Position numbers and translations under genes: made by a program. The notes beneath the pieces are model-generated. The model was not told the origin of the DNA and ran no database searches. It worked only from the letters and a program-made list of their open reading frames with translations. Below are positions 19,791 to 63,994 of a stretch of DNA of 64,000 bases, piece after piece. The DNA comes from Galbitalea soli (GTDB lineage Bacteria; Actinomycetota; Actinomycetes; Actinomycetales; Microbacteriaceae): NCBI RefSeq assembly GCF_010686725.1, contig NZ_JAAGWZ010000004.1:186001-250000 (forward strand), read 5' to 3'. The number at the start of each line of letters is the position of its first letter. The stretch's first letter is position 1.

Positions 19791-20947
<1,157 letters not shown>

Positions 20948-20948
<1 letters not shown>

Positions 20949-22072
20949 TACTGCTCCTGGTCGAGTCGGGCGAGACCCTCGCGGATGAATGCGGCGGAGG
21001 CCTCGGGGGTGACGTCCCCGATGAAGGCGCCCATCGCCGTCTCGGAGCCGGCGAGGTACTTGAGTTTGGTGGCGGCACGCCTCGGTGAGGTCAGCTGCAG
21101 CATGAGCCGCACGGTGTCGCGCCCGACGTTCACGGGTGCCTGGTGCCAGGCCGCGATGTACGGGGTCGGGGTGTCGTAGAGCATGTCGATGCCGCGCAGC
21201 AGTCGCAGGTACAGGGTGGAGAGCTCATCGCGCTCGGCGTCGCTCGTGGCCGCGAAGTCGGGCACCTGGCGGTGCGGGAGCATGTGCACCTCGATCGGCC
21301 AGCGGGCGGCGAACGGCACGAAGGCGGTCCAGTGCTCACCGCTCAGGATGACCCGCTCCGAGCCGCGCTCGAAGTCGAGGATGCGCTGGAAGAGGTCCGG
21401 TCCCACCCGCTCGATCGACGCGAGCAGGCGCGTCGTCTTCGGCGTGATGTAGGGGTAGGAGTAGATCTGGCCGTGGGGGTGGTGGAGGGTGACGCCGATC
21501 TCCTCGCCGCGATTCTCGAAGGGGAAGACCTGCTGCACGCCCGGGAGCGCGGAGAGCGCTGCGGTGCGGTCGGCCCACGCTTCGATCACCGTGCGCGCCC
21601 GCGACGGGGTCTGGGTGCCGAACGACCCGGTGGTCGCGGGGCTGAAGCAGACTACCTCGCAGCGACCCACCGAGGTGTAGCGGCGGCCGAGATCGATCTC
21701 GCCGAGCGCCGCGAGGCTCGGGGGAGCGCCGTCGGCGCCGGCGAGGTCGGGGCCGAAGCTCGGCGACCGGTTCTCGAACACGGCGACGTCGTACTGGTCG
21801 GGGATCTCCGAGGGGTTCGCCGCGGTGGCCGGCGCGAGCGGGTCCTGATCGGCGGGCGGCAGGAAGACGCGATTCTGTCGCGCGGCGGCGACGGAGATCC
21901 ACTCGCCGGTGAGCACGTCCTGGCGCATCACGGCGGTGGCGGGGCGGGGATCGAGCGTGCGGGCATCCGCCTTGCGCTCGGGGGGCAACGTCGTGTCGGC
22001 GTCGTCGAAGTAGATGAGTTCTCGTCCGTCTGCCAGCGTGGTGGCCCGTTTGACGATTCCGCTCGTGGTCAT
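20948..22072 (-). CDS. galT: galactose-1-phosphate uridylyltransferase
   Basis: The 374-residue enzyme exchanges UMP between UDP-glucose and galactose-1-phosphate in the Leloir pathway. The active-site HPH is in LHHPHGQIYSYPY (about residues 173-185), and HMLPHRQVPDF and AAWHQAPVN mark the second half. The start at 22072 is supported by a TATCGT -10 element six bases before the ATG. The frame stays open far upstream into the divergent regulator gene, but that extension runs across the operator and is not coding. No galE is nearby. Confidence 0.95.
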
Positions 22073-22129
22073 GCGATTACGATACCGAAAGAATTGACTT
22101 TCGGTATCGTAAATATTTAAACTCAGGAT
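22073..22129. promoter_or_regulatory. gal divergent promoter with 36-bp palindromic operator
   Basis: TTACGATACCGAAAG (22077-22091) and its exact reverse complement (22098-22112) surround AATTGA. For the regulator gene, a -35 TTGACT (22094-22099) sits inside the palindrome and, 18 bases on, TAAACT (22118-22123) is six bases before the ATG at 22130. For galT, TATCGT (22084-22079, minus) lies in the left arm six bases before the ATG at 22072. One bound repressor could shut both promoters, and both messages would be leaderless. Confidence 0.8.
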
Positions 22130-22951
22130 ATGGAACGCGCCGACACCCGCCGCGACGCCCTCCACGCCCTCGTGCGGGAGCGCGGATTCCTGCGCGTTGC
22201 CGACGCGAGCCGCCTCTTCGAGGTCAGTGAGGTGACCATTCGCGCCGACCTCACCGCACTCGAGGAGTCGGGACTCGTCATGCGCACCCACGGCGGGGCG
22301 ATGCCGCGCGGTGGCGACGGCGACGCGACCGCGCCGACTCCCGCGTCCGCCCCGGAGTCGGCCCTCGAACAGTCGCTCGCCCGGGAGAGCGCCGCCAAAC
22401 GGGCGATCGGGGCGGCGGCGGCGGCCCTCGTGACGCCGGGGCAGAGCATCCTGCTCGACGTCGGCTCGACCGCGCTCGCCGTGGCGCAGGCGCTCGTCGC
22501 GCGCACCGATCTCGATGAGCTCTCGATCATCACCAATGGGCTGTCGATCGCGCTCGCGCTGGAACCTGCGATGCCGCGCTTCACGGTCGTGCTGACCGGC
22601 GGAACACTGCGCCCGCTGCAGCACTCGCTCGTGAACCCGGGCGCCTCGGAGTTTCTGGAGCAGGTGCACGCCGACCTCGCGTTGATCGGCTGCAACGGGG
22701 TCGACCTCGTGCGCGGCGTGACCAATGTGAACTACCCCGAGGCCGAGGTGAAGCGCCGCATGGTGCAATCCTCCAAGCGGCGCGTGCTCATCGCAGACGG
22801 CAGCAAGCTGGGTCAGGCGCACCTCGGCCTGATCGGCCCGCTCTCGGATTTCGAGCTGCTGGTGACCGGCGGCGAGGCCCCACGGGGCGCGGTCCGCGGG
22901 CTCCGCGAGCACGGTCTCGAGGTCATCGTCGCCGCCACCGGGCCGCAGTAG
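22130..22951 (+). CDS. DeoR-family transcriptional regulator of galactose genes
   Basis: The 273 residues begin with a winged helix-turn-helix (about 5-60: DALHALVRERGFLRVADASRLFEVSEVTIRADLTALEESGLVMRTHGGA). A sugar-phosphate sensing domain of the DeoR type follows (GQSILLDVGSTALAVAQAL near 105 and KRRVLIADGSKLGQAHLGLIGPLSDFELLVTG near the end). Its gene is divergent from galT-galK, with a long palindrome between them, so it most likely represses both and responds to a phosphorylated galactose intermediate (inference). No ribosome site is present. Confidence 0.92.
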   Translation: MERADTRRDALHALVRERGFLRVADASRLFEVSEVTIRADLTALEESGLVMRTHGGAMPRGGDGDATAPTPASAPESALEQSLARESAAKRAIGAAAAALVTPGQSILLDVGSTALAVAQALVARTDLDELSIITNGLSIALALEPAMPRFTVVLTGGTLRPLQHSLVNPGASEFLEQVHADLALIGCNGVDLVRGVTNVNYPEAEVKRRMVQSSKRRVLIADGSKLGQAHLGLIGPLSDFELLVTGGEAPRGAVRGLREHGLEVIVAATGPQ

Positions 22952-22960: not shown

Positions 22961-23884
22961 ATGCGCGCTCCCACCGGTGAACAGTACGTCCTGACCCGCT
23001 CCACGCCGCTCGGTGCGGCGGAGGCCATCATCACGGAGGTCGCCGCCTCCATCCGCACCCTCCGCATCGGCGGGATCGACCTCACCCAGCCCTACGACGA
23101 GGGGCGCTCACCCGCCTTCGGCTGCGGGATCGTGCTCGTGCCCTGGCCCAATCGGGTGCGGGACGGCAAGTGGCGCCTGGGCGGTGACCTCCAGCAGCTC
23201 GACATCACCGAGGTGGAGCGCAACAACGCCATCCACGGTCTGCTCCGCAACACCGCCTATCGACTCGTCTCGCGCACCGAGAGCTCGGTCACGCTCGGCG
23301 CCGTCGTCTTCCCCCAGCACGGCTATCCCTTCCAGCTCGACACGACCGTCACCTACGAGCTCGTCGACGACGGCCTGCGCGTCACCCACTCGATCACCAA
23401 CGAGTCCGCCTCCGACGCGCCCGTCGCGATCGGCACGCACCCCTTCTTCCAGATCGGCGATGTCGACACCGAGCAGCTGACCCTCACGGTGCACGGCTCC
23501 ACCCGGTTCCCGGTGGACGAGCGCCTCAACGTGGGCGACGAGATCCCGGTCACCGGCAGCAAGTACGACCTGCGCAGCGGCCGGAAGGTGAGCGAGGTCA
23601 ACCTCGATGACGCCTTCGGCGCCGTCGTGCCGGTCGACCAGGTCACCGCGACCCTCACCGCACCGGATGGCCGCTGGGTCGGACTCTGGCAGGACGAGAA
23701 CTTCCCCTACGTGCAGGTTTTCACCACGCGCATCTTCCCGCGCATCGGCGGCGGCTTCACGACGGGGGTCGCGATCGAGCCGATGACCGCGCCCGCCGAC
23801 GCCTTCAACTCGGGGCAGTCGCTCAAGTGGCTGGGTAGTGGCGAGAACTGGGTCGCCAGTTGGGGAATCCGCTACTCGGCTTAG
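22961..23884 (+). CDS. aldose 1-epimerase family protein
   Basis: The 307-residue product belongs to the galactose mutarotase fold: PWPNRVRDGKW (about residues 63-73), the substrate histidine in NNAIHGLLRN (about 88-97), GTHPFFQIG near 155 and the C-terminal EPMTAPADAFNSG, where a catalytic Glu/Asp region is expected. It interconverts alpha and beta anomers so galactokinase gets its preferred form. Lying directly behind the gal regulator it completes the galactose locus, though its own -10 element suggests separate transcription. Confidence 0.92.
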   Translation: MRAPTGEQYVLTRSTPLGAAEAIITEVAASIRTLRIGGIDLTQPYDEGRSPAFGCGIVLVPWPNRVRDGKWRLGGDLQQLDITEVERNNAIHGLLRNTAYRLVSRTESSVTLGAVVFPQHGYPFQLDTTVTYELVDDGLRVTHSITNESASDAPVAIGTHPFFQIGDVDTEQLTLTVHGSTRFPVDERLNVGDEIPVTGSKYDLRSGRKVSEVNLDDAFGAVVPVDQVTATLTAPDGRWVGLWQDENFPYVQVFTTRIFPRIGGGFTTGVAIEPMTAPADAFNSGQSLKWLGSGENWVASWGIRYSA

Positions 23885-23893: not shown

Positions 23894-24340
23894 ATGATCT
23901 CGACCGAGCTCGCCCGCGCACTCCGCGACTCGGGGCTGGTCTGGCACCCGGCCGCCGGTGACGCCTTCCGCATCGACCGGGTGGAGGTCGACGGCGACAT
24001 CTTCATCCTCAGCGACATGACGGTCGAGGCGCACGAGTTCTCCACTGGCACCGTGCTCGGCTTCAACGGCACCACCGAGTGGGCGCTCGACTCGGTCGAC
24101 ATTCACGACGCCCTGTGGATGCCCAGCGAGGCGCAATTGCGCGAGCTCCTGCGTGGCACGTTCCGCTCGCTCGTCCGCACCGGCGACGCGTTCACGGTCA
24201 GCGCCGTGGTCGACGGCGAGGAGCGCAGCTACACCGCGCCCGACGCCGCCGACGCCTACGGCCGCGCTCTGCTCGCCTACATCGACGCGTCGCTCGGCGA
24301 CCCGCTGCCCGAACTCGACGACGAGCTGCCCGAGGCCTGA
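23894..24340 (+). CDS. conserved hypothetical protein, 148 residues
   Basis: Soluble, acidic, no membrane helix and no signal peptide. It starts MISTELARALRDSGLVWHPAAGDAFRIDRVEVDGDIFILSDMTVEAHEF and ends in an Asp/Glu-rich tail. I recall similar short actinobacterial proteins given doubtful pilus-assembly names, but nothing here supports that role. A leaderless promoter and normal codon use support a real gene. Its last 64 bases overlap the end of the convergent YcnI-like gene, so one of the two acidic or serine-rich tails is under little constraint. Confidence 0.75.
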   Translation: MISTELARALRDSGLVWHPAAGDAFRIDRVEVDGDIFILSDMTVEAHEFSTGTVLGFNGTTEWALDSVDIHDALWMPSEAQLRELLRGTFRSLVRTGDAFTVSAVVDGEERSYTAPDAADAYGRALLAYIDASLGDPLPELDDELPEA

Positions 24341-40771: not shown

Positions 40772-40852
40772 GACGACCTCCTTTGGTCGTGTGGGGGTGG
40801 ATGACCGGCGCCGGCGCGTCGTACTGGCGCGCCGGCGCCGGTCGTGGTGATG

Positions 40853-42400: not shown

Positions 42401-42509
42401 GTGATGCCTCCATGTACATTCATTGGACAGTGCAGAGGGTGGGTGCGCGGAGCGACCTGGCTCCATGTTCAGCGCAGGAATCCCGTCGCGGCCAGTTGGT
42501 TGTTGCTAT

Positions 42510-42536
42510 GGGGCGTTAGTCGGCGACTAACGCCCC
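42510..42536. promoter_or_regulatory. 27-bp perfect palindrome upstream of the importer operon
   Basis: GGGGCGTTAGTCG and its exact reverse complement flank a single G. The core GTTAGTCG is shared with the lysR promoter site at 34882. It may be a LysR operator, but a hairpin in RNA downstream of the beta-glucosidase gene is an alternative, though no T-tract follows. Confidence 0.6.
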
Positions 42537-42565
42537 AGCAACGAGGCGGAAAACGCGAAAGCGGC

Positions 42566-63961: not shown

Positions 63962-63994
63962 GGTGTGGGGTCGCTCCGGGAGCGACCCCACACC
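63962..63994 (+). terminator. strong hairpin after the solute-binding protein gene
   Basis: A 15-bp perfect stem, GGTGTGGGGTCGCTC with its complement around CGG, 15 bases after the stop. No T-tract follows, so it may be a processing or stabilising structure between the binding protein and the permease genes and not a full terminator. Confidence 0.6.

Follow-up and report, generated by a model that had tools for sequence, protein, structure and literature searches.

The question raised by this locus is how the galactose genes on either side of a very short intergenic gap are controlled, and whether the perfect palindrome that the gap contains is the operator through which this happens. The window, meaning the whole stretch of DNA that was analysed (64 kb), has a GC content of 71.5%, whereas that of the gap is 35%. 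The gap and the genes around it, the latter identified with Pfam and NCBIfam, are as follows:

19791..20948, minus strand: galK, galactokinase, with a one-base overlap with the galT stop
20948..22072, minus strand: galT, galactose-1-phosphate uridylyltransferase
22073-22129: divergent gap, 57 bp between the galT ATG (22072, minus strand) and the regulator ATG (22130, plus strand)
22130..22951, plus strand: DeoR-family regulator (HTH_DeoR and DeoRC)
22961..23884, plus strand: galM-like aldose 1-epimerase, 9 bp past the regulator

There are thus two divergent units, with galT-galK read one way and the regulator and galM the other. The original prediction had described the promoters as facing, which is wrong, as galT (minus strand) and the regulator (plus strand) diverge. 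An ORF of 148 amino acids without a Pfam match lies downstream of the epimerase (23894-24340).

Within the gap, the following elements were recognised:

22077..22112: perfect inverted repeat of 36 bp, with arms of 15 bp (22077-22091 and 22098-22112) and a spacer of 6 bp (22092-22097)
22077..22090: putative operator box 1, TTACGATACCGAAA, galT-proximal, with TTACGRTA retained in 28 of 66 aligned loci
22079..22084, minus strand: candidate galT -10 element TATCGT, inside both box 1 and the left arm and 6 nt short of the ATG
22094..22099, plus strand: candidate regulator -35 element TTGACT, from a promoter scan, largely within the spacer separating the boxes
22099..22112: putative operator box 2, TTTCGGTATCGTAA, regulator-proximal, with its centre 22 bp from that of box 1
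22118..22123, plus strand: candidate regulator -10 element TAAACT, from a promoter scan, separated by 18 bp from TTGACT and by 6 nt from the ATG

The perfect 15-bp arms that had been predicted were borne out, and an arm of this length was reached in none of 5000 dinucleotide-preserving shuffles of the gap, the best of which gave 11 bp. A long inverted repeat by itself is not rare in the window, because three further perfect ones with arms of 14–16 bp and loops of up to 20 are present, all of them GC-rich; an AT-rich one such as that in the gap is rare for the window. The three GC-rich repeats, at 40803-40843 (16-bp arms), 42509-42537 (14-bp arms) and 63962-63994 (16-bp arms), are possibly terminators. 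The view that the gap is fully used by regulatory elements was too strong, with both 22073-22076 and 22124-22129 lacking a recognised element.

Matches to the regulator at an E-value of 1e-50 or better were found in 133 of 249 genomes of the family, and 70 of the 136 regulator matches were examined as loci. In 66 of these 70, galT is divergent from and adjacent to the regulator; of the remaining four, three lack galT in the stretch and one is interrupted by a contig end. In another genome, galT (L139 and L140, G009:C1:2418558-2419624) is seemingly split by a frame change, for which a sequencing error might be responsible. Among 6-base words, TATCGT/ACGATA and CTTTCG/CGAAAG were the most enriched in the 66 gaps, and half-sites recur in these gaps at distances of 10, 11–12, 20, 21, and 31 bp. 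CTTNCG-N4-CGNAAG occurred 18 times in the 66 intergenic regions compared with 0.01 expected in shuffles, a figure that shows enrichment and not independent events, as the loci are related by descent and shuffle expectations overstate their independence. The 28 gaps with TTACGRTA next to galT are referred to here as class A, and the other 38 as class B, which do not have this arrangement but use other half-site layouts, so that no single layout appears to be essential.

Alignment of the related loci revealed that two paired boxes, each 14 bp long and of the form TTWCG-N4-CGWAA, make up the conserved unit, with box 1 much more strictly conserved than box 2 in class A. Within the window, box 2 is the mirror image of box 1 at all 14 positions, a match that amounts to 5–13 of 14 in the remaining class-A loci (27), the full perfect arms being private to the species of the window (one of 28 loci). 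Spacing from box to box in class A is 20 bp in one locus, 21 bp in 18, 22 bp in seven and 23 bp in two. In 15 of the 19 loci spaced at 20–21 bp, the right half of box 2 is followed at a distance of exactly 10 bp by a third half-site, CGNAA, which none of the nine loci with 22–23 bp spacing has at this position (Fisher's P 1e-4, a value that ignores the relatedness of the loci). Eight of these nine form a supported clade in the galT tree (97/94) that includes the genus of the window, in a tree that is weak in places, with 25 of its 63 inner branches open. The ninth, L069, was placed at 22 bp through a degenerate box 2, and its class placement is doubtful because of this box and because it lies outside the clade of the other eight.

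The galT -10 element had been predicted to lie inside the arms of the palindrome, and this holds for the candidate TATCGT, which reads from 22084 to 22079 on the minus strand within the left arm. TATCGT or a one-base variant is found 6–7 nt ahead of the galT start in all 28 TTACGRTA loci. When starts were picked by a rule blind to TATCGT, TANNNT was seen at 6 nt in 20 of the 28 loci and at 7 nt in five (25 of 28), counts that carry noise because the rule-based choice of start is visibly wrong in several rows. In the available text of two reports (PMC3160421, PMC3898074), a TANNNT near the start, with its first T around 12 bp before the start codon, is given as the mark of actinobacterial leaderless genes, and the leaderless set of M. 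tuberculosis as having no conserved -35. The galT start shares TANNNT and its distance from the start codon with the genes described there (PMC3160421, PMC3898074), but here the -10 element is also half of a putative repressor box. As TATCGT or its variant stands at 6–7 nt in all 28, the case for a leaderless galT is well supported, and transcription of this gene probably begins at its start codon. That the outer half of box 1 reads TTACG instead of TTTCG is presumably owed to the last T of TATCGT, which this A provides. Since a leaderless mRNA is still open to control of translation or stability, the further proposal that all control must be at transcription does not follow from such a start.

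Two leaderless promoters had been proposed, and whilst that of galT holds well, that of the regulator is weak, with TANNNT at 6 nt in one of 27 class-A loci, namely the window itself. NANNNT is found at 6 nt, from rule-based starts, in six of 27 class-A and 17 of 38 class-B regulators, the latter making a leaderless regulator likely elsewhere in the family. In most class-A relatives a Shine-Dalgarno-like sequence precedes the regulator, and in the species of the window its mRNA may be leaderless. The regulator -35 was expected in the arms of the palindrome, on the strand opposite to the galT -10, which is true of two of the six bases of TTGACT, but the other four lie in the spacer (22092-22097); the TTGAC motif of the spacer is retained in three of the four same-genus loci aligned. 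A possible but less favoured alternative -10 for the regulator is the TATCGT on the plus strand of box 2, which would give a leader of 12–13 nt, but no matching -35 was seen for it and AGGA lies just 1 nt from the ATG. In class-B gaps, those of L093, L101, and L126 among them, TTGACA or similar precedes the regulator start and is accompanied by a GAAGAT-type -10, 6 nt from the ATG, that overlaps CGAAG half-sites recurring around every 10 bp. In L068, L071, L100, L109, and L122, an operator half-site merges into the Shine-Dalgarno-like AAGGA before the regulator.

The regulator itself matches PF08220 over residues 7–57 (E 6.9e-15) and PF00455 over residues 87–246 (E 4e-42), both above cut-off, and so contains both domains by which the DeoR family is recognised, the N-terminal HTH and the C-terminal DeoRC sensor. 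It falls below the curated cut-off of the named NCBIfam equivalogs (AgaR, GlpR, SrlR, UlaR, DeoR), its two best scores being those for AgaR (168.8 of 260) and haloarchaeal GlpR (169.1 of 300), with the rest lower. The single PDB sequence match at E ≤0.01 is the deoxyribose operon repressor (7l6l).

The pattern TTWCGNTANCGWAA occurs twice in the organism's own 3.04-Mb genome, both times at the gal locus. In 17 chosen relatives it occurs 23 times, 20 of these at the gal locus, compared with three for a reversed-pattern control, and the three matches away from this locus are all in G176, an assembly of 490 contigs with a listed contamination of 7%. The pattern was not matched in G039, the boxes of which deviate from it, or in G109, which is class B. 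Among 20 genomes without a strong regulator match, six bear galT, and all six have no adjacent regulator in the stretch fetched and no box within 260 bp upstream; in one of them, G019 (L145), a CTTTCG-containing sequence that resembles class B lies at the end of the 260 bp ahead of galT. A wider regulon was considered and rejected, as there is no exact second site elsewhere in the own genome, and with two mismatches allowed there are 27 places as opposed to 45 for the reversed-pattern control. A one-mismatch site (G000:C1:819164) lies among ORFs of which none was recognised as a galactose gene from reading the translations. Judged by the adjacency of its gene and the restriction of the operator to the locus, the regulator would be a dedicated local autoregulator of the gal genes.

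The gene order, the boxes with their spacing and conservation, their single-locus specificity and the distance from -10 to start all point to the gap being a shared control region for an autoregulated, single-locus, DeoR-type galactose repressor that is released by a sugar phosphate, a reading to which a probability of about 0.75 is given. The DeoR-family regulator would bind both TTWCG-N4-CGWAA boxes, which should lie on one face of the DNA because their centres are 22 bp, or around two helical turns, apart. Where half-sites follow one another at about a helical turn on the same face, a pair of dimers or a tetramer would fit, and the regulator would probably bind in one of these forms; tetramers of AgaR, a tetramer of UlaR on DNA and an octamer of DeoR are on record in the available text of one source (PMC10991401). 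As box 1 contains the galT -10, binding would block RNA polymerase at galT, and as box 2 lies between the candidate -35 and -10 of the regulator, the regulator and galM would also be shut off. A phosphorylated compound formed as galactose is used would release the protein, with galactose-1-phosphate the most likely candidate, given that the effectors of the DeoR family are sugar phosphates.

Other explanations of the same gap have to be weighed against this. The 36 bp could be one operator read through its 15-bp arms, with both bound as a unit, as originally predicted. Perfection of the arms in the window, far beyond that of shuffles, speaks for this, but none of the remaining class-A loci (27) has perfect arms (5–13 of 14 matching), box 1 especially is retained across spacings of 20–23 bp, and several relatives carry the third half-site exactly 10 bp beyond box 2. 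Binding as a single unit is therefore unlikely, and what locus comparison supports of the original claim, besides a leaderless galT, is a putative operator for the adjacent DeoR-family regulator overlapping the galT promoter, but made up of two 14-bp boxes.

That the regulator uses the same boxes as an activator of galT, or with mixed action, is quite improbable. Activators too use divergent autoregulated layouts, and an activator of the L-fucose operon is among the weak NCBIfam matches of the regulator; box 1, however, covers the -10 itself, a place that would block RNA polymerase, and the best NCBIfam matches, though below their cut-offs, are repressors such as AgaR. It is very improbable that the palindrome works in RNA, as a bidirectional terminator or leader structure. 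A perfect inverted repeat could fold, but neither a terminator-like site nor an Rfam match was found for it, the spacing of the boxes varies by up to 3 bp, and the repeat would be absent from the galT message because that transcript would start at the ATG.

The proposed repressor resembles several known systems in part. The operator of GlpR in E. coli has a TTCG-N4-CGAA core, with several operators per control region, and this consensus resembles each gal box; GlpR, however, serves a glycerol-3-phosphate regulon with many sites and is not a gal regulator. AgaR, one of the two best NCBIfam matches of the window's regulator, below cut-off, is described for E. coli in the available text of two sources as binding tandem repeats in intergenic regions and as a reported tetramer, but its targets are N-acetylgalactosamine genes, whereas those here belong to the Leloir pathway (PMC5018945, PMC10991401). 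The nearest worked precedent is SugR of Corynebacterium glutamicum, which, according to the available text, is a DeoR-type repressor that has two sites within a gap between divergent genes and is released by fructose-1-phosphate (PMC2222622). Both are actinobacterial and DeoR-type, with two sites affecting both promoters and a sugar-phosphate effector, the latter as proposed here. The SugR motif, however, is a non-palindromic, AC-rich 21-mer and its regulon extends over several PTS loci, whilst the gal box is a near-palindrome and is found at one locus only (PMC2222622). A literature search on the box sequence found nothing usable, and no paper naming a DeoR-type regulator of actinobacterial gal genes was found among titles and the beginnings of abstracts, in a search that had most subscription journals outside its reach.

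A more general but tentative reading, considered doubtful at present, is that throughout the family the half-sites of the control region form a ladder along a single face of the DNA (at steps of around 10, 11–12, 10, and 10 bp), in which an end half-site doubles as a leaderless -10, for galT in class A, for the regulator in a large part of class B, and perhaps for both in the species of the window. If so, the perfect palindrome would have arisen recently, with operator and -10 fused in mirror image, and the third half-site would have been lost in the clade of the window's species. A few mutations could then shift tight control between galT and the regulator, and the locus would supply a series of natural variants in which to test the merging of repressor boxes with promoters.

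As a kind of switch this is ordinary, but its build is unusually tidy and conserved, and the layout is well supported. The locus also shows that behind a striking perfect palindrome, with a full-length symmetry private to one species, there can be two smaller conserved boxes, of which one is shaped by doubling as a -10 element. For the Leloir galactose genes of a large actinobacterial family, these findings assign a probable regulator, operator and transcription layout, and the natural variants of the gap could be used to test how a repressor acts on leaderless promoters.
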